DNA of 64,000 nucleotides from a virus, in the IMG/VR virus record IMGVR_UViG_3300021364_000015, positions 1 to 64,000 of that record, one strand, 5' to 3'. The position numbers and the translations under genes were made by a program. The notes beneath the pieces are model-generated. The model was not told the DNA's origin. It saw only the letters and a list, made by a program, of their open reading frames with translations, and did not search any database. Positions 20,941 to 38,458 of this stretch are shown piece by piece (within the stretch, counting starts at the first letter, position 1; each line of letters begins with the position of its first letter).

Positions 20941-22245
20941 TCAGGGAGCGGCAGGTGCTGAGTCGAATGTGACCTTGACGAACGACTCTGGACGCTTCAC
21001 AGCGAGAGCCAGACGCTCTTCAGCAAGCACCACGATGGCGTTGCGGACGAAGAAGTCTGAATGCTGTTCCGAAATACGGATTGAAGCAGCCTCACGGTCG
21101 TACAACTGAGCACCAGTACCGAACGCACCAACGAGAGCAGTGCCCTCAGCGATGGCCGGAGTGTCGATGACAGGAATACGCCAGACACGTGACTCTGCAC
21201 CACCAGCAACTGACATGGCAAGAAGGTACGTGCCCTGTGAGTTCTTGGTGAGTTCAATGTCTTCCCAATCTGATGGGTGGACAATGATGCCAGTCGGCTC
21301 GTAGTAGGCGAGGTACGCAAGCGTAGCCGCACGACGAAGAGCGTCAGCCTTGGTGTCAACGACAGGTGTGTTTGCACCTGATGACCATGAGTAGGTCTGA
21401 ATGCCTGAAGTGTTAAGGATACCAGTAAGGTCCTCACCAGTGCCAGCACCGGAAAGAATCTGGTTGTCCTCGGTCAGACGAAGACCGTACAGGAGTTCGT
21501 TGTCGATGATCGAACGCAACTGCGGCTCGTCAGCGAGAACGTTCCGGTGAGCGGCTTCCCAGTGAGCAATCGTGCGAACAGGAGCCTGCTCGCCAACGAA
21601 AGTCATGCTTGACTGAGGCTTTGCGCCAAAGTTGTCAGGCGAGCCAGAGACGTACTCAGGCACAACTGAAGCGGCGTTTGTGAAGCCGCTCTGACGGAAG
21701 TACTCAATGACAGCAGCGTTGGTGGTGCGTGCCGGGAAAAGGTCACGAACACGGCTACGACGCTGTGCAATCGGAACGATGCCATCACGCTCAACAGCAC
21801 CGAAGGCTGAAGGGGTGCCTGAAGGCAGTCCTGAGTAGATGTCCTTGGTGTGAAGTGACTTAGCCTCAAAAGGCGCAGACATGTTCACACCGTTGCGTCC
21901 GCCCTGAAGTGACTTGAACTCGGCTGAGTTGAGGAACTGATCGCCAACCGAACCACGGCTAGCGGCAACCTCGGCCTCAACGCCCGCAGCAACCTCAGCA
22001 GCGACTGACTTGAACTCAGCCTCTGATGACCATGCTGACACATCACGAAGGGTGGTCATATCTTCAATAAGACCCTTGATCTCACGAATCTGGGTCATGT
22101 TGTTCTGGAATGCTGACTTCTTCTCGTCGTCAGCGATGAGGGTATTATCCTCAAACTGCATCGAATCAGCGATCTGCTGCTGCTCTGACATTTTCTCGTC
22201 TAGAGCGCTCTTCAGTTCGTTGAGCCGACCTTCATCAAAACTCAT
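20941..22245 (-). CDS. Major capsid protein (HK97 fold)
   Basis: 434 aa. The N-terminal ~110 residues are a charged coiled-coil delta-domain/scaffold (LNELKSALDEKMSEQQQIAD). The remainder has HK97-fold features: DGIVPIAQRRSRVRDLFP, then FGAKPQSSMTFVGEQAPVRT, and a C-terminal TFDSAPAAP. It forms the icosahedral shell, the N-arm probably being removed by the prohead protease. It is preceded by AAGGAG and followed by a very strong terminator, as expected for the most abundant product. Confidence 0.9.
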   Translation of the reverse strand: MSFDEGRLNELKSALDEKMSEQQQIADSMQFEDNTLIADDEKKSAFQNNMTQIREIKGLIEDMTTLRDVSAWSSEAEFKSVAAEVAAGVEAEVAASRGSVGDQFLNSAEFKSLQGGRNGVNMSAPFEAKSLHTKDIYSGLPSGTPSAFGAVERDGIVPIAQRRSRVRDLFPARTTNAAVIEYFRQSGFTNAASVVPEYVSGSPDNFGAKPQSSMTFVGEQAPVRTIAHWEAAHRNVLADEPQLRSIIDNELLYGLRLTEDNQILSGAGTGEDLTGILNTSGIQTYSWSSGANTPVVDTKADALRRAATLAYLAYYEPTGIIVHPSDWEDIELTKNSQGTYLLAMSVAGGAESRVWRIPVIDTPAIAEGTALVGAFGTGAQLYDREAASIRISEQHSDFFVRNAIVVLAEERLALAVKRPESFVKVTFDSAPAAP

Positions 22246-22441: not shown

Positions 22442-23953
22442 CTACTTACGAGTAGACCGTGGATGCTTCTTCGGGAGCAAATCGTTATCAGTCGTATACT
22501 TGGAATTAGAAGGCTTACCACTAGACACGAGTTTTAAGAATGCATTGACACGGCCCATAGCCCACTGCTGGCGACCCATGCCCGGACGGTGCGTAGCAGA
22601 AAACGCTCCAGCACCTCGCCGCCAAACTGCCTTCAACATCCCTAAAGTTACCTTACGCTCAGGCTTATTTCGCTTCATCATCTTCTCGTTGTGCTCTTTC
22701 ACTTTGTTTTTTAAAGAAGCCTCAACTTGAGCCGAAAGTTTAATACCACCACGGGTTCCAGAAGCCGTCCCCGGCTTGTTCCGGCGAGAACCCCGAATAC
22801 GCTCAGAAGGTTTCGCCGGAGTCTTGGGATCATTAGGCCCATACTTGCGAGCAGCCTTGGAACGAGTCTTCCAATTATCAGGGATCAGATCAGTCCGCCC
22901 TAAAGAACGTGCCCGCTTCATGATATGACGCTTAGCCGCCTCTCGGTCCTTGCCGAGACCATAAGCCTGAATAGCATTTCGTAAATCACCTACATCACGA
23001 ATTGGGTACGAACCGTCAGGAAGGGCTAGTCCCCGCTTAGCATAATCCATGCGGCGAGCACGAGTGTAAAACCGCTTCTCTTCGATAGAATCAAAAGACT
23101 TCTTAGTTCCCTCCACCCGCTCAACAATGTCTTTGGCCCACGTATATCCCGCATCGCCGCCCCAAAGTGCCCAAGCAATACGGCCATTAGACGGGAAACC
23201 CTTCTCCCCCGGACGGTAACCCTCAGCCTTAGAATCGCTCTGATGACGATCAAAATACGCCTTCACTCTCTTAACTGTTCGATAGGGAAGGTTTTTACCG
23301 TTTGCAATATCACGAGCACGAGCAATTCCGACCATCGTTCCACCACGACCAGTCTCCCGTCGCCACTTCAGACCCTTCTTGGCTTCCTCAACCATGCCCG
23401 CCGTGGGCTTAAACGAGTCGCTTACATCGGCCTTACCCGAAACCAGCCCGCCTCCCGGCAACGTCTCAATTCCACGTGGGCCACGTTCACGCAGATTCTC
23501 CCACGTGCGCTGGTTAACAACAACACGGCGTGCCGGTCGCTGCGCTCTCAAAATACGAGAACGACCAGCGCCAGCATTGCCGTGTGCCGCATTATGTTCT
23601 TCGGGCGTAGCACAAGGTGCCCACACGCCCTGACGGACCTGATGAGCACCACTACACCCTAAACGCACAGCCGCCATTTCTGCTTCGCTGCGGTTCTTGA
23701 AAACCCCTTTAGTGCGAGCGGCCTTCATGTGCATAATATCCATGACTGCCTTCTTCCGAGTTTGGTTCTTTTTCCAATCACGAAATGCAGGATTTCCCAA
23801 CTCAATTAGTTTCAGTAAATCCCGTGGGGATTCGCAGGGACCCCAAGCATCGTCACCAACTCGGTGCGACCCCGAACAGCCGAGAATACGAGATAGTTCC
23901 TCCGCCAGTTTCTTTGTTGGTACCGTCTGCTCAAGCAAGGGGTCCTTCGCCAT
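22442..23953 (-). CDS. Head-cluster modular protein with two Cys-His-Cys motifs and a DUF6582-like segment
   Basis: 503 aa, strongly basic. Two copies of a Cys-x3-His-x9-Cys motif (Cys26/His30/Cys40 and Cys100/His104/Cys114). Next, at about 190-290, comes a conserved phage domain (RETGRGGTMVGIARARDIA, FPSNGRIAWALWGGDAG). At about 315-365 is a segment LPDGSYPIRDVGDLRNAI ... HIMKRARSLGRTDLIPDNW, also present in the acidic protein at 32.6-34.5 kb. The C-terminus is Lys/Arg-rich. Position next to the capsid gene suggests a virion or assembly component. Function unknown. GGAG precedes the ATG. Confidence 0.65.
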   Translation of the reverse strand: MAKDPLLEQTVPTKKLAEELSRILGCSGSHRVGDDAWGPCESPRDLLKLIELGNPAFRDWKKNQTRKKAVMDIMHMKAARTKGVFKNRSEAEMAAVRLGCSGAHQVRQGVWAPCATPEEHNAAHGNAGAGRSRILRAQRPARRVVVNQRTWENLRERGPRGIETLPGGGLVSGKADVSDSFKPTAGMVEEAKKGLKWRRETGRGGTMVGIARARDIANGKNLPYRTVKRVKAYFDRHQSDSKAEGYRPGEKGFPSNGRIAWALWGGDAGYTWAKDIVERVEGTKKSFDSIEEKRFYTRARRMDYAKRGLALPDGSYPIRDVGDLRNAIQAYGLGKDREAAKRHIMKRARSLGRTDLIPDNWKTRSKAARKYGPNDPKTPAKPSERIRGSRRNKPGTASGTRGGIKLSAQVEASLKNKVKEHNEKMMKRNKPERKVTLGMLKAVWRRGAGAFSATHRPGMGRQQWAMGRVNAFLKLVSSGKPSNSKYTTDNDLLPKKHPRSTRK

Positions 23954-25161: not shown

Positions 25162-28100
25162 CTACCCTGATGTTCCACTAAATCCAAATACGGATGCAGC
25201 GTCGGTCTCGGCAATTTTAAAAGTATCTAACTTGCCCGTAATTTTAGCAGATGGGATGTCAGCACGCTTAACTTGTGGACCTAACTTCATTACCGGTCCG
25301 TTTGGACCGGCCTCCCACACAATAAAACGGAAAGTGCTACCGCCCGCAGCAGAGGGGTCCAGCACAATTATGTTCCTACTGTTTAGGACGGACAAATCAA
25401 TTTGACTGGCCTGAATATCGGATTGAAGTGCTTCAAGGTTCTTGGTACCCATCGGCCCACCTAAGTCCCCAAGGTTAACAACCGATTCGGTCCACGGCAC
25501 CTGATGAGGTATATAAACTTCATCACCACCACCCCCGAGACTACCATTCACAAACGTCTGCCAAGGCCCGCCCGAATTGTCCCACTTACTCACAGAAGTG
25601 TTGTGCGGATTACCCCACACATCCGTAGATGCCCATTGAGCATCCAACTTGCTAACAATATCGTCAGAAAACATAATTACGCCCGAACTCGTGCTTAACT
25701 GGGTCGCATCATCCTTGGTGCGAATATACATACCATCCCCGGCCTGATGTGCTGGATCAGTGTCTCCCGAGGCCCCTCTAAGTCTATGTATGAAAGACGT
25801 GTTGCTTTGTGCTTTTTCAGCCCTATCTAAAGACCCCGTATGAGAGCCGTCCGCAAACAACCGACGAATAAACGTACTACGCCCAGACTCATCCGAAACA
25901 GATAGACTTTGGCTAGAATAAAATGCTGGAACTTTAGGAGCGCCGTTACTGTGAGTATCAGTTACACCTTTCTTCCCTGAGCGTCGCTTACCTAGTTCAA
26001 TTGCTGCCCGTTGTGCAGCCTCGGGTGTTAGAACAACGTGGGCTTTGCCTCCAGCCAAAGAGTAAGAAATATCTTCTGGTTTAATTCCGTACTCCGCTAA
26101 ATGAGTAAGCACTGATTGCATCGTAGCAGGGCTACTGTAATCTGTACCATAACCACCATGGTAAGATGGATCGACGTTACCTGCTTTCAAAGAGGTGCCT
26201 TTTGCCAACAAATCTCTAGCCAACTGATCTCGGATTTGAGTTTCAGTGGGCGGAGAAGCATCCACACCAACCTTAGCAAACACGCCTTCTAATGTTTCTT
26301 GCGCCCTTGTTGGGTCTTTCATGGCTTCCCTAGTATCGCCACTAACAAACACACGGACCCTTCTATTCAAACCGTGTTCGGCACCACCATTATTTGCAAC
26401 TTCGGGATAAACCATAACTTTCACATCCCCGAAATCTACAACCCTAATGGAAGTGCCCCCAGATGGGTCGGACGGGAGAAACTTTGAACTGCTGTCAATT
26501 GGGCCGTCACCAGACGACAACGTAGTATGACCTTCACTCGCAAAGTCGCTTACGTTTTTGGATGTCCCGTCAAGGGAAGAATCGACCTTCAACGTAGGCA
26601 TAGTATCGCCAGCAAAGTGGAATACCTTTTGATTACCGCCTTCAATATAATAGTGCGGATCGGTTCCTGCATCAATCTGCTCAAGAAGTTGAGTATGTGC
26701 TTCAGGAGACAAATTGAACGATAACTCTGCGTTCTTCACAAACTTGGCTTCACCTGAACCAACACCGCCCTCATTCACAAAATGGCCGGGAGTAAACGAT
26801 ACCTTCTGGCCTTCTAACGCAGGTCCGTCTATAGAGAGTTCGTTGACAATCGGCAAAGGCGCATCTATGCTATCGTCTTTTGCGTCAATGTCCGAAGGAC
26901 TGTTCATAGCCTTAACAACTCCCTCCGTCGATGACTTTTGAATAGCAGTAACATCGGTGGATGAAAGCGTCAACTGAGGGGCCAGTAGACCAACGCCTTC
27001 AGCATAGGTAGCAGGATCACTCGGATCACCATTAGGATCAACAATCTTACCGAACTTGCCAGATGACGCAGGTGGGGTAAACATCTTTATAGACGCTGCC
27101 GCATCCGTCAACTCTTCATCGGTCAAAACATCATCAGCAAAATCTTTCCCAAGCGCATCCTTCCATCCGGCGTGGCGCTGAGCAACGAAATCAGACATCT
27201 CTAGCAAACGGCCAGCCTCTTCGTCAGTAAGATTACCGACTTCGACCTGACCACGAATTCGTTTCTGAGAAGCATCTACATCATAAGCCTGCAACGCTTT
27301 TTGCGCTTCTACGATAACAGCCTTACGATCTTCAGCAGGGAGACTACTGATGTATTGTCCAAATTTTGATCCGAAGAACTCTTCTGCACCGTCAGCCTTT
27401 TCCGTGTCATATGGGACGAACGCTTTACCAGCATCGAAAGCAAAAACTGATCGCTTACCGTTAGCGTCCACCATACTGATTCTGTTCCACTCACCATTAT
27501 CAGGCTCACCAATTAAGTACTGCTGGGCAAGCATAGCGCCCAACTGCTGATGATTGAGTGCAGTCCCACTGTGACTCTTCTTCATGTCTAGAACATTGCC
27601 GACAGGCTGAATAATCATCGGACGATTAGTTGTGTCTACACCATCCTTGGTAATAGTATCTGATCCGTTGGGAAGCATCTCTGCGCCACTCTGGAAATAC
27701 GTATCGCCCGCAAATGTTACATCGGGGACAGGTAGACCCAAATCCTGTGCAACAATCGCTGCTGACGATTCTGACAAGTGTTCTTTATCGTTACGGGCAG
27801 GCTTCTTTAGAACATAAAAGTTACCTGTTACTTCATCACGGAACATCCGGGTTGGATAACCAATCGTAGCATTAATGCCTGCGTCGCCTACAGATGTTTC
27901 AACATACCGGTCAACAGAGCCACTACTAATCGCATCAAAAATTTCATCATTCAGATCAAAGTCAGTTACCATGAACTCTGGATCATTTAGCGCATCAACA
28001 ACCCCAACATCTGCTAACAACTCTGCCGCAGCCTCACGCTTTGCAGGTTCGTTGACATCAACCTTAGCCGCAACCTGCTTAAGAGGCAAACCTGTCTGCT

Positions 28101-31100
28101 TTGACTTCTTTAGCATCTCTTCATTATCGAAAAGCGACGGAGTGTGCTTCGTGGGAGGAACAACATCTTTAGGAATTCCCCCGGAGCCTTTAGTCGGACC
28201 AGAGTCAGGACTCGTCATATTCTTAAACATGGCATTATAGTACGTGTTACCCGTTGTATCGCCGTTGACGCCGCCGTTACTGACCCATAAATCTAAATCG
28301 GCGGCGATCTGCAAGTCACGGGCTTTACCAGTTGCAGTTGTTGTGTCTTTATCAATGAATCCCGGCACCATGTCCGCAGAAACAAAGTCTACAGCGTCTG
28401 TTTCGTCATTACCAGCAATGTTAACTTTATTGAGACCGCCGCTAACCTGTGCGATGAAGAAGTAGTTCTTGCTGGTGTCACCACCGTAAGACCCCGGTAG
28501 GGCACCAACGACCTGAACATCATCTGGTGACAATCCTGTCTCTTCAGCCAACTCTCGCATAGCAGCGCCGTAAGCAGTTTCACCGTTGTCGATTCCACCC
28601 TTACTGAAAGTCCAGCCGTAGCCACCATAGTTACCCTTTGTGTGGCGCATCAAAACCTTACCGGTGTCAGTGTCCACAACTAGCACGCCAACACGAGTCG
28701 TTGGATCGTCAATGTCAAAATCGGGGTCATCAAAAACCTCTGCTGGATCAGCCTTAGCAATTTGTTCTGGCGACCACGGATTAGAATCATACACTTTTTC
28801 ACGATAATCCTTGCGACTCGCTGGAGGCTTAGGACCTGAAAGGCCATCTGCGCTATTATTGATCACATCGTCTGGAACATCCGTGGTGTCATTCAGATCA
28901 GGGTTGTTTACAACGTCTTCAATCTTGCTGTTCGGATGGAACCCATCGGGATCGGGGTCGCCCATTTCTAGATCGGCATTATCTACCAAACCATCTTGCT
29001 TAGCCTTTACTTCTCGGTTTGTCACCTCAGCCTTAAGTCTATCCAACGTTGTTTGGTTAACAGGAGAAAGCGGAGGAGTGCTCGTATCGGCTGCTTCCTT
29101 ATTGAAAGCATCAGTGTAGGCGTTCAGTTCTTCGTCGGTAAGCGATTTGATAAATTCTGCTTCAGAAGGCGTAAATCCATCGGCGGATTCAGTTTCCGTG
29201 TAGAACTTGTTCCGCTCTTTACTAAAGCCCGTAAAAGTCAAATCCTTAGTAGACGGCGGCTCTTTAGACTCGCCACGCTTTTTAGCACGGGCACCCTGAA
29301 TCATGTTGATCGCAGTAACACGATCTTGAAGAACCTTACTAGGAGGACTACCAGCGGCCTCAAGCGCAGCAATCTCAGCAATATGAGCCTGCTTATAGTT
29401 CTCTAAGTCGTCATCAGATAAACCCATCAAGAATTCATTAGTAGGCGTGGAGCCACGTGCTACTGCGAAACCTTCTGGCGAATAATCTACGCCGGGAGAA
29501 GATAACTCGTCAGCAGGGGTCTCAATGTCTACCGCACCAGCGGCACCGCCAGCATCACCCGGAGGATCAACGGGAGGCTTGATCGAATTTACGATAGACT
29601 CACGACGGTTCGGCGCAAGCCGACCCACGAAATCTTCGTAATCCCCATCAAACGACCCGTCATCTTGGGCACGCTTCAACTCGTTAAGTTCCAGCCAATC
29701 GTTATACCGACGACGCTCAACACGGACATCTTTGCTATTCTTGTTAGCCTTTAGATACTTCTTGATATCCTTTTCAGAGAAATCGTTGATACCCTTACCC
29801 AAGCGGTTTGCCCAAAACGCTGACAACTCGTTAAACTCTACTTGGATAGCGTTATCTACCTTGCTCTTATCTTCGTCAGACAAATCCCGAAGTTCAGGAA
29901 CGTCTACCTTCTTACGGCGACCGCCAATCGAAAGTTGACTAAAGTTGTCTAGTTTCTCAGGTTTACGTGGAGAATCAAACTTCTTCGGAGCCTTCGGGGC
30001 AGTTGCAGCAGGAGCAGCGGAAGCAGCAGGACGGCGCTCACGCCGATCACGGCGAGAAGTGTCAGGATCGACAAAGTTCGCCAGTCGATCCATAATGCCA
30101 GCAATAGCATCAAGAATACGCCGACCAATGCTACGGTCCTTTTCATTCTTAGGAGGATTATCAGTAAGACGGCCAGCCTCCAAACCAGCAGCCTTTTCAA
30201 CAGCCTTATAAGCCTTTTGAATCTCAGGGATATCGGGGTCCTTGAAATCCTGATCATTCAATACGTTACTCAAATTGTCCAAAGCATCCGCCAAAGGCTC
30301 GCCGCCAAGCAAATCCTTATCCGCATCAGTCAACTGAGCAGCATTACGTCGCTCTGCAATGCTCGGACCAATACGACCCGGACGCTTGTCTTCAGTCTTA
30401 TCCAAAACATTAGCGAGTTTATCCATGACATCGGCAAGACCGTTCAAAGCGTTATCATACTTTTCCTTGATTGCTGCACCAAGACGCTCACGGCGAGAAC
30501 CCCGCTCAAGCCTACGCTGACGGCGCTTCTCCATAGCGTCTTCAATACGGATACCAAGATCAACAAGACTATTTACAACAGTGCGTGGAAGAGAGTAGCC
30601 ACAGTTACGCCCGAACTGATCGGTGATGCGCCCGCCGTAACGAGTGCCGGGAGGGCACCGATATCGGTTCAAACCGGGGTCGAACAGAGCACGAGCACGA
30701 CCTCCGCCACGGCCACCCCGTTTAACTTGAATGTTTTCTCGGCTTTCCGCAAAAATTGCAGCCCGAACTTCAATCAACTCGTGATAGTTAGCGGTTCGGT
30801 GTGTGAGAGAGGTAATCGTCTTGGTGGATAAGAAAAAAGGGTTAACCGCTTTTCCCTCCGAAACAATTTCAAAAACGGGAGCGTCCTTCGCACGGCGAGG
30901 AGCAGACCGAGACAAGAACGTCTCATAAACCCACTGGGGAACCGTCAAAGTTTTACCACCAGCAGTCTGAACACGAATTAACTCGTTCTTGTTAGCATTC
31001 ACTTCAAACTTGTTATTCTTTAGTTCCCCAAATTCAACAGTCAGCCTACCGTCTGTACCATCGGCATAATTGCGAATAGCCGCACTAGGGTCAGGCAGGT

Positions 31101-32454
31101 CTGCCGCCCGTCGTAAAGAGGTTGGGAAAACACGACGCAAACTTTCAACCTCGGTCGGAGACAACTCTCCACCAACTCTACTCACACGGACAGCACCAGA
31201 CTCAGGGATGTCAACATAGACATCACGGAGACCGGTAGAGAAAGCAGGAACAATATCTTTACCAATCTGTCCGCTTTCATAACGATCAATCAGTGTACCA
31301 TCAGCCAAGTCGTCAAACTCATCAAGTTTACCAAGAGCCTGTAATGAAACCACAGGTTCAAGAATAACACCATCTCTACGAACAGCACGAACTGAAAAGT
31401 CTTGCTCATCCGTGCGAGCAAGAACAGTGTTAATTGAAATCTGACGGCGAGTGGGGCTACCCTTCTTGGGGGCAACAGGAATCTGAGCCGCACGGATAAT
31501 ATCATATGGATTACGGTTGCGGCGCAAGTCGCCAATCTCCCGAACCAGTGAAGCATCACGAGCCAAAGCAGCCAAAGCCCTCTGCGCTCCAGACGAAGGA
31601 GACCCTACGCCTTTACCGGGAATACCCAAAATCTGAGCACCACAAGTACTGAACTGCGCATTAGTGAAAGTACCGCCCTTTTGGAATCCGGGCGGACACC
31701 TAAACTTATTGCGAGCGCCACGACCCCCAGCACGCCCACGACGGGCTAACCCGCCAACAAGTCGTCTAGCACTCGGAAGTCCCCGACCGCCACCGGGAGT
31801 CAAAGTTTCGTAAATCTGCGAACGGATAGGGCTACGGATATCTGAAATATCGCCCGGAAGGATAATAGTGCCTACGGCTTGAGCGGCCTGACCAGCACGG
31901 CTAGAACTGCCAAAAATGCCAACACGCTTTTCGCTAACTTCACCGTTAACTCCAACCTTTGCCGCATACGAAGAAAACATTGCCGCCTTCATATCAACAG
32001 CAGACTGACGGCCAGCAATAGGCTGAACTAGCACGCCACCAAAGTCCCTAGATTCACGAACAGCAATCCGCAAAGGCGAAACTTCAATTATTTCGTTCTG
32101 AGAAAGCAACTCACCCGACTTCGCTCTGCGGGCAGCACTTCTAACACGGCGAACACTCCGACTACGGCGTTTACCGCCACGCCCACGCCCACGCTTACCT
32201 TTACCCTCGTTGGGCCACTTGCCTGTAAGTTCGTGGTGAAGCCACGCACAGATGCGCTGAGGTTTGCCACCAAACTGCGGTTTATCCATAAGGATAACAA
32301 CACAGCGGCGAAATCCACCCGGCTTCTTCATGATAGGACGCCAGTACTTTAAAAGTTCCTCAAGATTGCCACGACGAGGACCACGACCACGAGTAAGGCT
32401 AGTTAAAGCATCTGCGTTAGGGCCGACTTCTGGTCTTTTAATTTCAGTCAGCAT
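25162..32454 (-). CDS. Giant multidomain ('polyvalent'-type) virion-cluster protein with NUDIX and kinase-like domains
   Basis: About 2430 aa. ATG at 32454 is preferred over a GTG four codons upstream because GTGGGG is correctly spaced before it. Order: a short domain with RRCVVILMDKPQ and ICAWLHHELTGKWP (to ~85); an Arg-rich linker; two CPPG-x4-GG repeats ending in CG (about 252-272 and 599-619); amphipathic helices; two similar ~60-residue helical repeats (about 1006-1060 and 1100-1155). A NUDIX hydrolase domain follows (about 1254-1390) with a perfect GX5EX7REUXEEXGU box. Next is a kinase-like domain (about 1525-1770: FYVLKKP, HLSESSAAIVAQDLGLPVP, GEPDNGEWNRI, FAFDAGKAF). The C-terminus is about 650 uncharacterised residues. 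Its place between protease and capsid genes suggests packaging and injection with DNA, as proposed for phage polyvalent proteins. Confidence 0.75.
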   Translation of the reverse strand: MLTEIKRPEVGPNADALTSLTRGRGPRRGNLEELLKYWRPIMKKPGGFRRCVVILMDKPQFGGKPQRICAWLHHELTGKWPNEGKGKRGRGRGGKRRSRSVRRVRSAARRAKSGELLSQNEIIEVSPLRIAVRESRDFGGVLVQPIAGRQSAVDMKAAMFSSYAAKVGVNGEVSEKRVGIFGSSSRAGQAAQAVGTIILPGDISDIRSPIRSQIYETLTPGGGRGLPSARRLVGGLARRGRAGGRGARNKFRCPPGFQKGGTFTNAQFSTCGAQILGIPGKGVGSPSSGAQRALAALARDASLVREIGDLRRNRNPYDIIRAAQIPVAPKKGSPTRRQISINTVLARTDEQDFSVRAVRRDGVILEPVVSLQALGKLDEFDDLADGTLIDRYESGQIGKDIVPAFSTGLRDVYVDIPESGAVRVSRVGGELSPTEVESLRRVFPTSLRRAADLPDPSAAIRNYADGTDGRLTVEFGELKNNKFEVNANKNELIRVQTAGGKTLTVPQWVYETFLSRSAPRRAKDAPVFEIVSEGKAVNPFFLSTKTITSLTHRTANYHELIEVRAAIFAESRENIQVKRGGRGGGRARALFDPGLNRYRCPPGTRYGGRITDQFGRNCGYSLPRTVVNSLVDLGIRIEDAMEKRRQRRLERGSRRERLGAAIKEKYDNALNGLADVMDKLANVLDKTEDKRPGRIGPSIAERRNAAQLTDADKDLLGGEPLADALDNLSNVLNDQDFKDPDIPEIQKAYKAVEKAAGLEAGRLTDNPPKNEKDRSIGRRILDAIAGIMDRLANFVDPDTSRRDRRERRPAASAAPAATAPKAPKKFDSPRKPEKLDNFSQLSIGGRRKKVDVPELRDLSDEDKSKVDNAIQVEFNELSAFWANRLGKGINDFSEKDIKKYLKANKNSKDVRVERRRYNDWLELNELKRAQDDGSFDGDYEDFVGRLAPNRRESIVNSIKPPVDPPGDAGGAAGAVDIETPADELSSPGVDYSPEGFAVARGSTPTNEFLMGLSDDDLENYKQAHIAEIAALEAAGSPPSKVLQDRVTAINMIQGARAKKRGESKEPPSTKDLTFTGFSKERNKFYTETESADGFTPSEAEFIKSLTDEELNAYTDAFNKEAADTSTPPLSPVNQTTLDRLKAEVTNREVKAKQDGLVDNADLEMGDPDPDGFHPNSKIEDVVNNPDLNDTTDVPDDVINNSADGLSGPKPPASRKDYREKVYDSNPWSPEQIAKADPAEVFDDPDFDIDDPTTRVGVLVVDTDTGKVLMRHTKGNYGGYGWTFSKGGIDNGETAYGAAMRELAEETGLSPDDVQVVGALPGSYGGDTSKNYFFIAQVSGGLNKVNIAGNDETDAVDFVSADMVPGFIDKDTTTATGKARDLQIAADLDLWVSNGGVNGDTTGNTYYNAMFKNMTSPDSGPTKGSGGIPKDVVPPTKHTPSLFDNEEMLKKSKQTGLPLKQVAAKVDVNEPAKREAAAELLADVGVVDALNDPEFMVTDFDLNDEIFDAISSGSVDRYVETSVGDAGINATIGYPTRMFRDEVTGNFYVLKKPARNDKEHLSESSAAIVAQDLGLPVPDVTFAGDTYFQSGAEMLPNGSDTITKDGVDTTNRPMIIQPVGNVLDMKKSHSGTALNHQQLGAMLAQQYLIGEPDNGEWNRISMVDANGKRSVFAFDAGKAFVPYDTEKADGAEEFFGSKFGQYISSLPAEDRKAVIVEAQKALQAYDVDASQKRIRGQVEVGNLTDEEAGRLLEMSDFVAQRHAGWKDALGKDFADDVLTDEELTDAAASIKMFTPPASSGKFGKIVDPNGDPSDPATYAEGVGLLAPQLTLSSTDVTAIQKSSTEGVVKAMNSPSDIDAKDDSIDAPLPIVNELSIDGPALEGQKVSFTPGHFVNEGGVGSGEAKFVKNAELSFNLSPEAHTQLLEQIDAGTDPHYYIEGGNQKVFHFAGDTMPTLKVDSSLDGTSKNVSDFASEGHTTLSSGDGPIDSSSKFLPSDPSGGTSIRVVDFGDVKVMVYPEVANNGGAEHGLNRRVRVFVSGDTREAMKDPTRAQETLEGVFAKVGVDASPPTETQIRDQLARDLLAKGTSLKAGNVDPSYHGGYGTDYSSPATMQSVLTHLAEYGIKPEDISYSLAGGKAHVVLTPEAAQRAAIELGKRRSGKKGVTDTHSNGAPKVPAFYSSQSLSVSDESGRSTFIRRLFADGSHTGSLDRAEKAQSNTSFIHRLRGASGDTDPAHQAGDGMYIRTKDDATQLSTSSGVIMFSDDIVSKLDAQWASTDVWGNPHNTSVSKWDNSGGPWQTFVNGSLGGGGDEVYIPHQVPWTESVVNLGDLGGPMGTKNLEALQSDIQASQIDLSVLNSRNIIVLDPSAAGGSTFRFIVWEAGPNGPVMKLGPQVKRADIPSAKITGKLDTFKIAETDAASVFGFSGTSG

Positions 32455-32623
32455 CGAAATCCCCACACCTCTCTAACGGCCTAAACTCGTAAACTTCGTC
32501 GTCAACCTCTAAGTATTCTACCTCGTCCGCATTATACGTTGAGCCAAGAAACACTCTGGAACCGACATTGAACAGGGCTTCATTGGCAAGGCTAATCCTT
32601 TTCCCTACTTCTGAGGGTTTCAT
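32444..32623 (-). CDS. Small acidic protein (59 aa) between the acidic and giant genes
   Basis: ATG at 32623 opens a 59-codon frame (MKPSEVGKRISLANEALF...) ending TGA at 32444. It overlaps the giant gene's start by 11 bases (ATG-x5-TGA), a common coupling arrangement. GGGGGGTAGG lies upstream. Acidic, with DEVEYLEVDDEVYEF; function unknown. It fills a gap that otherwise has no gene. Confidence 0.65.
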   Translation of the reverse strand: MKPSEVGKRISLANEALFNVGSRVFLGSTYNADEVEYLEVDDEVYEFRPLERCGDFDAD

Positions 32624-32640: not shown

Positions 32641-34506
32641 TCAGGAACCTTCGCCCTCCATGAGAGCACGGAACTCATCTAGCGCAGAAAGGAAATCGGC
32701 GTCATCTGACTTTTCGCCGTCAGCCTCAGGGGCCGCTGCTTCGGCAGCATCCCCAAAGCCTTCAGGAATCATCTCTTCAAGACCAAGTTCTTTAGCCCGC
32801 TTCATGATATGTGCCTTTGCGGCATCGACATCCTTAGCACGCTGATGAGCCATAATAGCATTCTTCAGATCAGCCTCATCAGCAATCGGGAACGACCCGT
32901 CTTCCATCGCCTCGCCCGACTCAGCCATTGCTTCACGCTGCTCACGTGAATACATGCGCTTAATTTCAAGTTCGGCCTCAAGAGCCTTGATCTCTTCCTC
33001 TTCGCTCATTTCGTACTCAACGTCATCAATCATGTCGTATTCGTCGTAGCCCAAAACCTTACCCTCTACTGAAACGTAGAAATCAAAACTCTTCTGGTCA
33101 GAATCAACTTCAACAACATAGACATCTTCATCAGCGAAAATATCAACCATGATGCCCATGACTTCGCCCTTAGCATCAAGTTCCATTTCATCAAATGCCT
33201 TAACAGCGACTGCTTCAGCATCTGAAGAAGAAATGATGTTCAGTTCTTCGGCAGACTTGCCTTCTACTAGACTTTCGTCAACTCGCAGCCAGCCAAGTTC
33301 ATCGCCCTCACCTGACAGGAATACTTCAATACAAGTACCATCGTCACACTTGACATCTACAACAAACATGTCATCAGTGGAAGAGTAACCTGATCCAATG
33401 ATTTCCCCCGGATGGACGCTCTTAACTACCGACTCAATATCCGCAAGACCGGGAAGGCCGTCTTCAGGAGCGCAGCCGCCCTGACAGAAGTCGCACGGCT
33501 GTGCGACAGACTTGCGTTGGAAGCCACACAGGAATTCTTCAGACTTTTCACCATCTTCAGGCTTAGCAGCAGTCAACTTTTCCCATTCATCGTGGGAAGC
33601 GCAAGGCATGAACTTGTCACCAGCACCATGTGTACCTTCGCAACCAAGGGCAGCAGCACGCTCAAGGGCCTCTTCTTCAGTGTCGAACATGTCAGCCATG
33701 CCTTCGGCCTTTTCCTGAACCTCTTCGGCATCTTCAGACTTCTCATCGTCTTCGTCTTCCATGTGACCGCCCTTACGCATGGAGTTGACTTCAAGAGGAC
33801 TGCGGCGACGGTAGCGCTTACCATATCCCTTGCCAGAGCCTTCTTCGTAAACGTCAACAGCCTCGTAGGAGTCCTTGGCGTCTTCATCAAGATCAGCGTA
33901 CTTCTCTTCTGTGATGAGATCGTCGTCGGCTTCCATCTCTTTAAACCGGGCGTCGGTCATGAACATTGAAGGGGTTTCATCTTCGTCGTCTTCAATACGA
34001 GACATCTGCATCATGATAGAAGCAGCCTTGGCTTCTATATCACCGGACTCTTCAGGGTCTTCAGCGTCTTCAGGAAGTTCACCGTCTTCAGCCTCAGCCT
34101 CAGCCTCTTCAGCGTCAGCCTCTTCAGCGTCAGCCTCTTCAGCGTCGTCAGCGTCAGCCTCTTCATCGTCGTCAGCGTCAGCCTCTTCATCGTCGTCAGC
34201 GTCAGCCTCTTCGGCATCCTCATCGTCGTCAGCATCCTTAGTCTCAGCCTCTAGCGCTTGAGCAACCTTTTCAACCATGTCTTCGGCCTCAGGTTCGTCA
34301 GCCTCTACAGCCTCAGCCTCTTCGGCGTCGTCGGCCTCTACAGCCTCCACCTCTTCGGCGTCGTCAGTTTCTACAGCCTCAGCCTCTTCGGCTTCATCTA
34401 CTTCGTCTTCAGTGTCGTCTTCGGCGTCAGCGCCCTTTTCCTCAACAGAAAGAAGCGCCTCAATATCCTCAAACTTCTGAAGATCGTCATTCATGTTTTC
34501 ACTCAT
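32641..34506 (-). CDS. Very acidic head-cluster protein with Cys-His-Cys and DUF6582-like segments
   Basis: 621 aa. The first ~160 residues are almost entirely Asp, Glu and Ala in short repeats (EEADADDDEEADADDDEEAD). In the middle is a Cys-x3-His-x8-Cys motif (LGCEGTHGAGDKFMPC), then a second Cys cluster (CDFCQGGC). The C-terminus has the DGSFPIADEADLKNAI ... HIMKRAKELG segment shared with the 503-aa protein. Position between the protease and the giant gene, together with the extreme charge, suggests a scaffold-like or internal head protein. That is inference. AGGAG precedes the ATG. Confidence 0.6.
   Translation of the reverse strand: MSENMNDDLQKFEDIEALLSVEEKGADAEDDTEDEVDEAEEAEAVETDDAEEVEAVEADDAEEAEAVEADEPEAEDMVEKVAQALEAETKDADDDEDAEEADADDDEEADADDDEEADADDAEEADAEEADAEEAEAEAEDGELPEDAEDPEESGDIEAKAASIMMQMSRIEDDEDETPSMFMTDARFKEMEADDDLITEEKYADLDEDAKDSYEAVDVYEEGSGKGYGKRYRRRSPLEVNSMRKGGHMEDEDDEKSEDAEEVQEKAEGMADMFDTEEEALERAAALGCEGTHGAGDKFMPCASHDEWEKLTAAKPEDGEKSEEFLCGFQRKSVAQPCDFCQGGCAPEDGLPGLADIESVVKSVHPGEIIGSGYSSTDDMFVVDVKCDDGTCIEVFLSGEGDELGWLRVDESLVEGKSAEELNIISSSDAEAVAVKAFDEMELDAKGEVMGIMVDIFADEDVYVVEVDSDQKSFDFYVSVEGKVLGYDEYDMIDDVEYEMSEEEEIKALEAELEIKRMYSREQREAMAESGEAMEDGSFPIADEADLKNAIMAHQRAKDVDAAKAHIMKRAKELGLEEMIPEGFGDAAEAAAPEADGEKSDDADFLSALDEFRALMEGEGS
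34060..34400 (-). repeat. Short degenerate tandem repeats encoding Asp/Glu/Ala tracts
   Basis: Repeating units of about 24 bases, built on cagcctcttc-atcgtcgtcagcgt, occur within the acidic protein gene. All are multiples of three and in frame, so copy number change would alter tract length without frameshift. Confidence 0.7.
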
Positions 34507-34533: not shown

Positions 34534-36114
34534 TTACTTGACGCCGCTGTCGGTGTCAACGGGCTGGGACACGGAAATTTCAGGGTCAAACTCTAAGCCA
34601 GCCAGAGCCGTAGCAACCTTCTCTAGTAACTCCTCATGCTCAACCTTGGTTGAGAAATGAAGATCAACCCCATCTTCCGACTTGAACGTAAACACGGGAA
34701 CACCCGAAACGGCAGCGCTGACATCAAAGGCTTCAGTTTCTTCACACTTAATGTGGACAACAAAGCCTGATGTGACCTTTTCGCCTTGTTCCATTGGGCG
34801 AGACATCGGCGCAGAAGTTAAGAACTCTTCAAGTTCATTAATAAGAGCAAGGGTGGCTTCACGCACCTGTCCAGCACCCCGAACCTTCAGCATCTCGTTG
34901 TATGCCATAAGAAGCAAGGCCATAGGGTCCTTCAAGTAATCGGGCTTCTGACGACGCATCATGTGGCCCTTTTCCTCAGTCTCGCAACCGCAAGACGCAT
35001 CCTTGGCTTCCTCTACTTCAACACCTTCAAGGTAGTTATTATGTGAATTGATGTTAGCGTTGTCATCAAACTTTTCAAGCGCTTCCATGTACTCTTCATG
35101 AGTATCACAAGGCAGGTACCCACCACCATGAGAGTGGTAGCCAGAACAACCAAAAGTCTTTGACCATGCTAAAGCAATGTCTGGAGTAGCCCAAGTGCCC
35201 TGCTCTGGATTCGCATCACGGACACCTTCTGGCTCTTCAGCATCTTTCTCATCTGGGTCCTTCACCATCATCGAAGTAGGTGCAGCGTCCCCCATCGGAG
35301 TATATGTAGTCATGGGCTTGACACGAGTGGGCTTGCCGAGAGTAATCTGCTGCCCTTCACGGTTGAATGTTGCCATCCACACCATGTTTTCACCGGTCTG
35401 GAACACAACGCTATTATCATTCATCTCTAGAATCTGCACAGGCTTACGTAGTGCCTGCGACAACATACGCCCCATCATTGCAGACATTGCATCTGCTCTA
35501 TTAGCAGGAGCGTCCTTATCATCATCCATATCGTACATTCCGCCCTTATCAGAGGTGCCCTCGTTGTCGTCTTTAACAGAAATCGTACCAGTCAACTGGT
35601 TAGCACCATGAAGTACTGGAGAAATTTCGTATAATTCTACTTCCTTCAGCATATTTGCCTGACGGCCTGCGTCAAAATCGGCCATAATGGTCTTGTAGCC
35701 AATTGACCATTCTTGATCCATGCCGTAAAATGCAACGTTTGCAAACGCCTCACGTCCACGCTCGGTGTTAAGATTGAACTGGACCTTGGCAAAGAGTCCA
35801 CCAATACCCGCCTGTTTCATCTTCTCTGGTAGGCGAGGGTCGGACTTAGGAACTTCGTAGATTTCAAGAACTTTACCAATCGGCTGGTTCCAGTCGTGGC
35901 CCCACACTACACGAGGCTTACGGCGCTTAAGTGAACCGTTGAAAGCCCCCGTGACGACTACATCGCCCACGGAATCTTTATTACCAATGCCTGAAACAAA
36001 GGCTTCAACAATGCCCTGCGCCTTGTCAATACCGATCTGACCAGAAATTGCTTTAAAATCAAAAGCGGGATCAGTGTCTTCAACGACATCTGCATACTCA
36101 ACTAAAGTAGTCAT
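34534..36114 (-). CDS. Prohead protease (HK97/S78-like) with long C-terminal extension
   Basis: 526 aa from ATG 36114, which has AAGGAG at the right distance; an in-frame ATG six codons upstream overlaps that site. The protease domain covers about 20-175. Catalytic His73 is in VVWGHDWNQPIGK and Ser137 in DQEWSIGYK, followed by ELYEISPVLHGAN. It matures the capsid by cutting scaffold and capsid N-arms. The C-terminal 350 residues are unusual for the family. They include a Cys-x3-His-x8-Cys motif (FGCSGYHSHGGGYLPC), as in two neighbours, and a DASCGCETEEKGH segment. Confidence 0.85.
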   Translation of the reverse strand: MTTLVEYADVVEDTDPAFDFKAISGQIGIDKAQGIVEAFVSGIGNKDSVGDVVVTGAFNGSLKRRKPRVVWGHDWNQPIGKVLEIYEVPKSDPRLPEKMKQAGIGGLFAKVQFNLNTERGREAFANVAFYGMDQEWSIGYKTIMADFDAGRQANMLKEVELYEISPVLHGANQLTGTISVKDDNEGTSDKGGMYDMDDDKDAPANRADAMSAMMGRMLSQALRKPVQILEMNDNSVVFQTGENMVWMATFNREGQQITLGKPTRVKPMTTYTPMGDAAPTSMMVKDPDEKDAEEPEGVRDANPEQGTWATPDIALAWSKTFGCSGYHSHGGGYLPCDTHEEYMEALEKFDDNANINSHNNYLEGVEVEEAKDASCGCETEEKGHMMRRQKPDYLKDPMALLLMAYNEMLKVRGAGQVREATLALINELEEFLTSAPMSRPMEQGEKVTSGFVVHIKCEETEAFDVSAAVSGVPVFTFKSEDGVDLHFSTKVEHEELLEKVATALAGLEFDPEISVSQPVDTDSGVK

Positions 36115-36212
36115 AACTCTCCTTAAGAACATTGCAACACTGCTATATTACACTCTACAGCCAGTAGGATGAAGAGGGTTTATATAAAAATCCTGCAAAG
36201 GCGTTTATATAT

Positions 36213-37007
36213 TTATCTTGTAAACTTCAACACACAACGACAGTTAATTGTCAACCCCGGAGGGGCCAAGGGGTCTTTCGGGAAACGGATAGGTACCCCG
36301 TCAACAAAAAATGGGCTTCCAACAGGGACTTTATCTCCATTTAATTGCCTGTGACTAATACGCACACGCTCATCTTTTAGCGAAACCCACTGCTTGTTCA
36401 CTCCGGCATCAGCATTTGAAGCGGAGTCGAAAAGTCCTTGATTGTATGGACCAAGAACTGCGGAATCTACAATCATATCCTTGCGGTTACTACGTAATTT
36501 ATTGAAAACTGCTTTGACGAGTACCGTAGCAAGAATAACCTTAAAGGCTATATTTAAATCTACCCCATCTCTATCCCGCCCCAGCGAAGCAGCAGCAAGT
36601 GCCTCTGCAACTTGGTTTTGCGTCGTGGTATTGAAATTATTGACGGTTGCGAGATGTTCTGAAACGGCAGCGTCTGCTTGCTCAGAAGTCACGGGCTGAC
36701 CATAGCCTTCTTCGATATTATCAGAAATGGCCTGCTGATAGATATCTTTCATGCCCGCTGTAAGTGGTGCAGTGCTAACAGACAAAGCAGCAATAGGAAC
36801 TATAGAAGCAAAATTAGCGTCCTCGCCTAAAGACAGGAGAGCAGACGTTGCTGGAGTATTAATCGCTTCTAAGACTTCTTGTTCTTGAGCATCAATGATT
36901 GCATCTAACTGCTGAGAAACTTGATCCTCTAACGACTCAACCCGGTATAGTGCTTTATCTTCCCAAGAGGTATATTTAGAAAGATCACCAAACTTTAGAT
37001 TTGCTGA
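36213..37007 (-). CDS. MuF-like head morphogenesis domain, in -1 frame after portal
   Basis: 264 codons from the frameshift point. The C-terminal part (VNKQWVSLKDERVRISHRQL ... GSPFFVDG ... PGLTINCRCVLKF) is the SPP1 gp7/MuF signature. The N-terminal 74 codons (SANLKFGDLSKYTSWEDKAL...) are coding-like but contain no ATG, GTG or TTG. The first possible start is a TTG at 36785, with no ribosome binding site. The frame opens just after a -1 frame TAG and overlaps the portal's 3' end, where a C_CCT_TTT heptamer lies. The likely product is therefore a portal-MuF fusion of about 748 aa. An alternative is TTG initiation, giving 190 aa. Confidence 0.75.
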   Translation of the reverse strand, partial: SANLKFGDLSKYTSWEDKALYRVESLEDQVSQQLDAIIDAQEQEVLEAINTPATSALLSLGEDANFASIVPIAALSVSTAPLTAGMKDIYQQAISDNIEEGYGQPVTSEQADAAVSEHLATVNNFNTTTQNQVAEALAAASLGRDRDGVDLNIAFKVILATVLVKAVFNKLRSNRKDMIVDSAVLGPYNQGLFDSASNADAGVNKQWVSLKDERVRISHRQLNGDKVPVGSPFFVDGVPIRFPKDPLAPPGLTINCRCVLKFTR

Positions 37008-38458
37008 AAAGGGGCACTCTTCCTACCCTCCGCTTCGTCATCCTGCAATTCACTTGCAACTGATGCGGCGGAGGCTTCGATATTCTCGGTACCTGTTACA
37101 GTACCGGCCTCAACAAAGCCACCTTCTTCTGGACTGAACTCTGTAACTACTGACTGCTGAGCATTCTGAGCCTGAACATCTAGAGGTACGCCGCCCTCAA
37201 CGTTGGTTTCCTCATTCATGGCCTTTTCTGTATTTGCGATTGGGGTCTGATTAGGGTTGGAAAGGAGTGAGTCCGCAATGTCGGAAACAACCTTTTTCCG
37301 GCCAGATGCTTCCCTATACTCATTTGCGCTTATCAGGCCCGTCTGGAACTCTGTTAGATTATGTCGCTCACGCTCCTGCTTTGCGAGTACTAGGATTGGG
37401 ACGTTAGAAACATCAAAGTCAATAAAGAAGGAATCGTCAATCTTGTCAAATGAACGGGCAATAAGGTCAAGGTGCGGAGACATTGTTTCCATCCAAAACA
37501 CCTTACCCTCTTCCATAGCGTTAGAGAAAGTACGGTTAGACGAGTTACCAATAATTGACTCAGGGACACCAAAAGCAGCAAGAATTTCTTCCTTGGTGAC
37601 AGTTCTCATCTGAATATATGCAGCATCACGTGGGCTAGCAGCCGTATCTACGAAGTCAGCACCGTCATCTGAAGAGATCACCCCGACAGAACCTGCACGT
37701 CCAATGTTGCCACGGAAACGAGAACGAAGTTCTTCTTTGTCCTCATCTGCAATCTCGCTCCGAAGGACTAAGAGACCACCCGGTCGGCCATCGTTAATCA
37801 AGAAGTTTCTGTTATAAATCTTCGCTAAGTTTTCAAGTTCAATGGCAACGCCAGCGGCTTCCATTGGCGTCATAGAAAGGTAAGGGTCTAACGGATGAGG
37901 GCGACGAATCCAAATAACATTCTCGGGCTTGATTGTACGCTTCTCTTGTGCGTTGATCTTTACCTCAAAGCCTTTGACAAACTTAGTGACATCTGGAATT
38001 GGAGACGTACTCTGCGGAGGCAACAAGTGCAGTGCAATTGGCTGACCGCCTCGGCCTCTAACAATTTCCACAAAAGCGCCACGGCTACTCATAAGTAACT
38101 GTGATGAAAGACGGTATCTGAAGGCAAAAGCGTTCTCACCGTCGTTGGCCGTGTTGTTGAAAAGTTTCAACATGCTGTGGTCACTGACAACCTCACCGAA
38201 AGGATTGTTGTCTTTGCGGAACATCATGGGTAGGCGGGCCTGATTAGAAGCAATCACGTCAATGCATCGAAATACCCAAGTGACCTTAGAAACGCCCTCT
38301 TTGTACGCTTTAACAATATCCCAGCCGTCGTGGTAACCCCGACTTTCACCCAGTGATGGGCTATATGAAACTGGAGCACCTACTGAAATAGAGGCTGCTT
38401 TCTGCTGACCAGCAATTGCATCTTGAATAGATTTGTTTGAACTAGAGTTCCACGCCAT
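36995..38458 (-). CDS. Portal protein (HK97 family)
   Basis: 487 aa. HK97-type portal features: VTWVFRCIDVIASNQARLP near the N-terminus, LHLLPPQSTSPI, ENVIWIRRPHPLDPYLSMTPMEAA (quoted in part), RPGGLLVL and LAAFGVPESIIGN. It forms the dodecameric DNA gate at one capsid vertex. The acidic C-terminal tail (about 400-487) is low complexity. The start overlaps the stop of the upstream 52-aa membrane protein gene (TAATG). A canonical -1 slippery site lies 10 bases before its stop codon. Confidence 0.92.
   Translation of the reverse strand: MAWNSSSNKSIQDAIAGQQKAASISVGAPVSYSPSLGESRGYHDGWDIVKAYKEGVSKVTWVFRCIDVIASNQARLPMMFRKDNNPFGEVVSDHSMLKLFNNTANDGENAFAFRYRLSSQLLMSSRGAFVEIVRGRGGQPIALHLLPPQSTSPIPDVTKFVKGFEVKINAQEKRTIKPENVIWIRRPHPLDPYLSMTPMEAAGVAIELENLAKIYNRNFLINDGRPGGLLVLRSEIADEDKEELRSRFRGNIGRAGSVGVISSDDGADFVDTAASPRDAAYIQMRTVTKEEILAAFGVPESIIGNSSNRTFSNAMEEGKVFWMETMSPHLDLIARSFDKIDDSFFIDFDVSNVPILVLAKQERERHNLTEFQTGLISANEYREASGRKKVVSDIADSLLSNPNQTPIANTEKAMNEETNVEGGVPLDVQAQNAQQSVVTEFSPEEGGFVEAGTVTGTENIEASAASVASELQDDEAEGRKSAPFQQI
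37007..37013 (-). promoter_or_regulatory. Programmed -1 frameshift heptamer C_CCT_TTT at the portal/MuF junction
   Basis: In portal frame the minus strand reads GCC CCT TTT CAG CAA ATC TAA. A -1 slip re-pairs as CCC TTT, with a perfect match in the A site. The open -1 window is only about 35 bases and contains this one canonical heptamer. Confidence 0.75.

Follow-up and report, generated by a model that had tools for sequence, protein, structure and literature searches.

The IMG/VR virus record IMGVR_UViG_3300021364_000015 is 68,530 bp long, and the window, which is the whole stretch of 64,000 nucleotides analysed here, lies within it. The minus strand of the window carries a portal gene whose end overlaps a long open reading frame in the -1 frame, followed by other genes of the head region:

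38458..36995, minus strand: portal protein ORF (zero frame, 487 aa), with the TAA stop at 36997..36995.
37022..36213, minus strand: -1 frame ORF of 269 codons, the putative C-terminal extension of the fusion, with its stop at 36213..36215 and a Phage_Mu_F domain at the end.
36228..36488, minus strand: Phage_Mu_F domain (PF04233), from a profile match.
36786..37006, minus strand: start-less 5' part of the -1 frame, free of ATG, GTG and TTG, in which the protein motif W-E-x-K-x-L-Y-x-V-x-S-L-E is conserved.
37007..37030, minus strand: whole conserved recoding cassette, GAGGGTAGGAAGAGTGCCCCTTTT, delimited by conservation across relatives.
37013..37007, minus strand: slippery heptamer C_CCT_TTT, with CCT as P-site and TTT as A-site codon, the sole in-phase canonical heptamer in the frame overlap.
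37023..37025, minus strand: TAG stop of the -1 frame, 12 nt 5' of the heptamer; all of 29 representatives have TAG, TAA or TGA at this place.
37027..37031, minus strand: internal Shine-Dalgarno-like GGAGG, 13 nt 5' of the heptamer, which overlaps the invariant GAGGGT.
36132..34534, minus strand: prohead protease (PF04586), the next gene after the portal/MuF region.
22245..20941, minus strand: HK97-type capsid protein (PF05065), further downstream of the protease.

The 3' end of the portal ORF reads AGT GCC CCT TTT CAG CAA ATC TAA, and the -1 ORF opens at 37022, directly after the TAG at 37025..37023. The initial annotation of this DNA had placed one canonical heptamer in the overlap, at 37007-37013, which the sequence bears out, and had described a MuF frame that lacks a start for 74 codons; the first possible start in the -1 frame is indeed TTG 36785, 74 codons past the slip site. 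Its expected products of 487 and about 748 aa agree with the portal ORF and with the predicted frameshift fusion product, which is computed as 748 aa, while the overlap of the two frames is 28 nt and not about 35 bases as given there.

In profile searches, the portal ORF matches the HK97-type portal model PF04860 (E=3.6e-55, 187.8 bits against a cut-off of 39.1), and it also matches the HK97-type portal 6te8/6tba in the PDB (E~9e-22). The PF04233 match has an E value of 2.9e-9 and 38.1 bits against a cut-off of 29.6, and covers positions 34-111 of the 112 of the domain; a PDB sequence search for a solved MuF structure gave no match. Both ORFs match PHROG 2662, a single family of 717 positions, the portal ORF at 14-459 and the -1 ORF at 485-706. 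The two matches are colinear, with the profile almost gap-free between them, and the best stretch of the -1 ORF is 28-266. The window does not hold a one-frame portal-MuF fusion gene, since the two frames differ by -1. No tRNA genes were found in the window. The small Cys/His motif DUF3721 (PF12518) is present in three head-region proteins (22442-23953, 32641-34506 and 34534-36132) and is weak in the prohead protease, and a 2434-aa protein with a NUDIX domain (25162-32466) is encoded between the capsid and protease genes.

A search of IMG/VR with the portal retrieves 80 relatives with 65-93% identity, and the first set of relatives, the window counted in, contains 76 complete portals. C_CCT_TTT or C_CCT_TTA is found near the portal end in 55 of the 76, in each case in phase and with the long frame in -1; all 55 complete portals of this set with MuF in the -1 frame have C_CCT_TT(T/A) at the same point. 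Codon-level tests use 29 representatives, which have less than 95% nucleotide identity to each other and of which 25 have C_CCT_TTT and four C_CCT_TTA, while L207, a representative added later, has C_CCT_TTC. The full cassette, with up to two mismatches allowed, occurs once in the window against 0 expected, and of the 12-codon stretches in these portal genes, just 2.3% contain an in-phase X_XXY_YYZ (Y is A or T, Z is not G), whereas the slip site stays unchanged among deeply diverged relatives. At the site 37023-37025, the GG combination that would yield TGG is absent from all 29 representatives.

The conservation of the heptamer at the nucleotide level exceeds the constraint on the protein. 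The 29 representatives have 240 degenerate portal columns in which the amino acid never changes; the codon is fixed in just three of these (GAG, GGT and CCT), all inside the cassette. Every other invariant proline is encoded by at least two codons, mostly by all four. The codon that precedes CCT is NNC in every representative, though its residue is A, L, V, D or R, and where it is Leu (21/29 representatives) the codon is always CTC, the rarest Leu codon, which accounts for 4% of Leu in these genes. For 15 representatives less than 80% identical, each treated as independent despite relatedness, the NNC pattern has a log10 P of -17. The change from F to L inside the heptamer (TTT to TTA) retains the X_XXY_YYZ pattern. 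Counted from the first base of the CCT codon, the distance to the portal stop varies from 9 to 42 nt, and the short tail in between is not conserved.

From the portal stop to the first possible start, substitutions among relatives number 135, 85 and 319 at positions 1, 2 and 3 of the -1 frame codons. The pN/pS ratio of the -1 frame upstream of any ATG, GTG or TTG is ~0.11, which indicates purifying selection. This selection and the conserved W-E-x-K...SLE motif argue that the start-less segment is made as protein despite the lack of a start. In the -1 frame of the representatives, no ATG, GTG or TTG for MuF is conserved, and the earliest candidates lie at scattered places, 17 to 77 codons downstream. 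For a gene caller that relies on start codons, the initial 74 residues of the MuF extension would go undetected, and the other members of the clade would likely lose a stretch of similar length. The initial annotation had proposed a portal-MuF fusion by -1 frameshift at C_CCT_TTT and a comparison of related phages for the heptamer and the start-less MuF frame; this comparison gives a clear result in favour of the proposal, with both conserved and the heptamer in phase in 55/55 complete portals that have MuF in the -1 frame. Not part of that annotation were the invariant Shine-Dalgarno-like element upstream, the probably ancestral in-frame state, and the lineages in which MuF is separate or absent.

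The motifs C_CC.U_UU.U and C_CC.U_UU.A shift in Escherichia coli, which may not be the host, even without stimulators, and C_CC.U_UU.C is named a high-level shifter, likewise in E. coli (PMC4066793). Shine-Dalgarno stimulators of -1 frameshifting have a spacing of 9-14 nt (PMC5009743). Relatives with GGTGAG variants have a GGGTGA that ends 9 nt before the heptamer, and both this spacing and the 13 nt of GGAGG are inside that range. Pairing with the anti-Shine-Dalgarno 3' end of the 16S rRNA is from -7.6 to -14.1 kcal/mol across the family; most clades have -10 to -14, L051 has -8.5 and the subclade of L069, L075, L077 and L078 has about -7.6. The stimulator is probably this internal Shine-Dalgarno-like GGAGG, judging from its position and pairing, and the site of the cassette is not the strongest of its kind in every portal gene. 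The conserved stop 12 nt before the heptamer may be a block on early shifts or a by-product of the Shine-Dalgarno-like element. Simple folds without pseudoknots, computed for 14 representatives, show no conserved 3' stem-loop and are generally no better than shuffles (z mostly near 0), and the efficiency of frameshifting may therefore be modest; such 3' structures are not always present in prokaryotic frameshift sites (PMC4066793).

The portal gene very probably encodes two proteins by programmed -1 ribosomal frameshifting. The majority of ribosomes would terminate at the TAA at 36995 and produce the 487-aa portal. Some would pause with CCT in the P site and TTT in the A site, when GGAGG, as the putative stimulator, pairs with the 3' end of the 16S rRNA. 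Both tRNAs would then slip back by one base to pair with CCC and TTT, and reading would continue in the -1 frame to give the 748-aa portal-MuF protein. A portal ring has about 12 subunits, which are usually treated as identical. If both portal forms join the same ring, the slip rate would set the number of MuF domains anchored in the head, and a frameshift of, say, 5-25% would give about one to three MuF domains per ring of twelve. A ring that mixes plain and MuF-bearing subunits in a fixed proportion is plausible.

In the sister and outgroup lineages (L223, L224, L226-L230 and about 70 loci of L250-L328), portal shares one frame with MuF or with the N-terminal part of the extension, and the cassette is absent. 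The same is found in the nearest cultured phages, which are actinophages of Gordonia, Brevibacterium and Streptomyces; no cultured phage with the same recoding was found, the closest cultured relatives being in-frame fusions. The single-frame fusion of the sister lineages has 748-755 aa and its alignment is continuous through the junction, and the in-frame protein of L228 has 748 aa, equal to the predicted frameshift product of the window. In the outgroup portals L271-L316 (679-701 aa), the MuF extension consists of its N-terminal part only, and the C-terminal Phage_Mu_F motif is missing. On the tree of the portal core, which has some long branches and an unsure deep root, the frameshift lineages form one clade (91/99). 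Two lineages are nested in this clade. In L022-L027, MuF is in the +1 frame and has its own ATG, which overlaps the portal end. In L032, L034-L045, L050 and L056, there is no MuF between portal and protease, and a PF04233 search of the 41-66 kb contigs of this lineage gave no match. Both have lost the EG-KSxPF tail and the heptamer. Since close relatives encode the long protein in one unbroken gene, an obligatory fusion seems to have been replaced by a dosed one, and the simplest reading of the tree is that this happened once, the dosed fusion being afterwards split or lost. The family retains the series of states from obligate fusion to dosed fusion, separate gene and no MuF, which opens the role of MuF, and the evolution of recoding from a plain fusion, to study.

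Programmed -1 frameshifting is by far the best explanation of this locus, because the codons of the cassette are invariant, the start-less frame is under selection, the sister lineages have a single frame without the cassette, and the lineages in which MuF is lost or separate are also without it. What the sequence shows is the frame overlap, the heptamer, selection at the codon level, translation of the start-less frame and homology to single-frame portal-MuF proteins. It is very unlikely that MuF is instead translated on its own, through internal initiation or through re-initiation close to the portal stop (non-standard starts included), with the heptamer being incidental. A separate MuF is tolerated in L022-L027 and the GGAGG is present upstream, but no start is conserved, the candidates lie within conserved protein, the codons 5-10 nt past GGAGG vary and are not start-like, and the invariant CCT and NNC codons are left unexplained. 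A good ATG for MuF in relatives, which the initial annotation had named as a finding against its proposal, is present just in these derived L022-L027, in the +1 frame and where the heptamer is lost. Conservation of the cassette for the peptide motif EG-x-K-S-x-P-F, and not for frameshifting, is highly improbable. This motif is well conserved, and similar EGE(K/Q)RxPF peptides are present in other phage proteins, but a peptide does not need fixed codons (GAG GGT ... NNC CCT), the change from F to L is allowed provided the heptamer stays, and the third-base C is retained while the residue before P varies among five.

Fusion of the frames by transcriptional and not ribosomal slippage at the C/T run is hardly credible. 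The window has the run CCCCTTTT, but the runs in the family are of merely 3-4 bases (CCC TTT T/A), which is too short for typical transcriptional slippage; in addition, Z may be A, and conservation tracks the codon phase X_XXY_YYZ together with an anti-Shine-Dalgarno-pairing element at the right distance. The chance that the two frames are really one, through a sequencing or assembly indel or a decayed fusion gene, is negligible even though single-frame fusions exist in relatives, as the same frame relation and heptamer are found in 55 complete portals (29 of them less than 95% identical) from many metagenomes, with portal stops at different positions and the -1 frame under purifying selection, and an indel artefact at the site, the other objection raised in advance, is rejected by this comparison of dozens of independent, diverged contigs.

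Phages are well known to use frameshifting in capsid, tail-tube and tail-chaperone genes, and to make in-frame portal-MuF fusions. In the lambda-type G/GT system, the -1 slip occurs near the end of the gene of the tail assembly chaperone, which is absent from virions. The window family shares with it a -1 slip near the end of a gene of the structural module and a dosed C-terminal extension, but the genes are different, a chaperone and a portal. In-frame portal-MuF fusions of PHROG 2662 are found in Gordonia phages GMA6, Chidiebere and DalanDe, in Brevibacterium phage Cantare, in Streptomyces phage Gilgamesh and in the Microbacterium EA/EB clusters (PMC7302621). Such fusions, which have 748-923 aa in uncultured and cultured relatives, share the domain order of the predicted fusion and are homologous to it in both the portal and the MuF part. 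They carry MuF on every portal subunit, from one ORF, whereas in the window family the fusion requires a -1 shift and plain portal would therefore also be made.

Frameshifted virion proteins include gp10A/10B of T7/T3, the capsid protein of phage A2, those of Listeria PSA, and gp17.1/17.1* of SPP1 (PMC5009743, PMC6316719). They resemble the proposed system in that the frameshift rate determines how much of a virion protein is made in a minority form with an extended C terminus, but they are many-copy major capsid or tail-tube proteins with an often Ig-like extension, and in the window the portal ring and a MuF domain are involved. In SPP1, gp7, a protein of the MuF type, binds the portal gp6, which takes a small number of copies into the procapsid; assembly is normal when gp7 is missing, but only about 25% of virions are infectious (PMC6316719). 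In both systems a MuF-type protein would be brought into the procapsid by the portal, from separate genes and by non-covalent binding in SPP1 and by a predicted covalent fusion dosed by recoding in the window family. By analogy, the portal-MuF fusion may be a covalent form of MuF targeting to the procapsid, a cis version of SPP1. A general remark that MuF/VIP2 pairs might use frameshifting has been made (PMC10885494), and no earlier description of a phage portal gene with frameshifting was found in the open-access literature, subscription papers being outside the search. A frameshift that is conserved and dosed leads one to expect rings in which a minority of the subunits bear MuF, and so the covalent placing of a few MuF domains at the packaging vertex. 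It would link a measurable recoding rate to the stoichiometry of the portal vertex, which is testable.

The cassette pattern is found in 76 IMG/VR stretches, and in 65 of them the portal family of the window is upstream. Prokaryote genomes (257 Gb) contain five matches, which is chance-like, and none of these resembles the window phage. The remaining viral matches are 11, about 8 of them independent, and the cassette is read in the same frame in 10 of the 11. Three independent matches outside the window family fall in other portal genes, in L087, L101/L123 and L115. The portal of L087 (L087:949-2921) is of the PHROG 2662 type and has a -1 ORF of 212 codons; a MuF-like Cys motif can be seen in this ORF by eye, but no family match is convincing, one contig having been found for the L087 family. 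In L101/L123, Phage_portal_3 and Acb1 are in one ORF, and a -1 slip meets an immediate stop, near where the ORFs of relatives end; in L115, the portal ORF has 1595 aa and a -1 slip terminates after 15 codons. L104/L114 have a -1 ORF of 126 codons, and L089 is like a tail-chaperone pair by size and overlap alone, with no family match. Perhaps, although this is doubtful, phages use the cassette GAGGGT-RRG-x-AG-x-G-NNN-CCCTTTW as a recoding module that they have put independently into unrelated portal genes, each time at the C-terminal border, where it would set the share of subunits with an extra domain by adding a domain (window family, L087) or by removing one through termination (L101/L123, L115).

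In L123 (L123:3-2024), the ORF of the Phage_portal_3 portal also encodes an Acb1 (anti-CBASS) domain at its C-terminal end (PF23474, 9.5e-41), and the relatives of this portal, L232-L243, extend through the same region. This arrangement suggests that the virion portal of the L123 group may incorporate an anti-defence enzyme.
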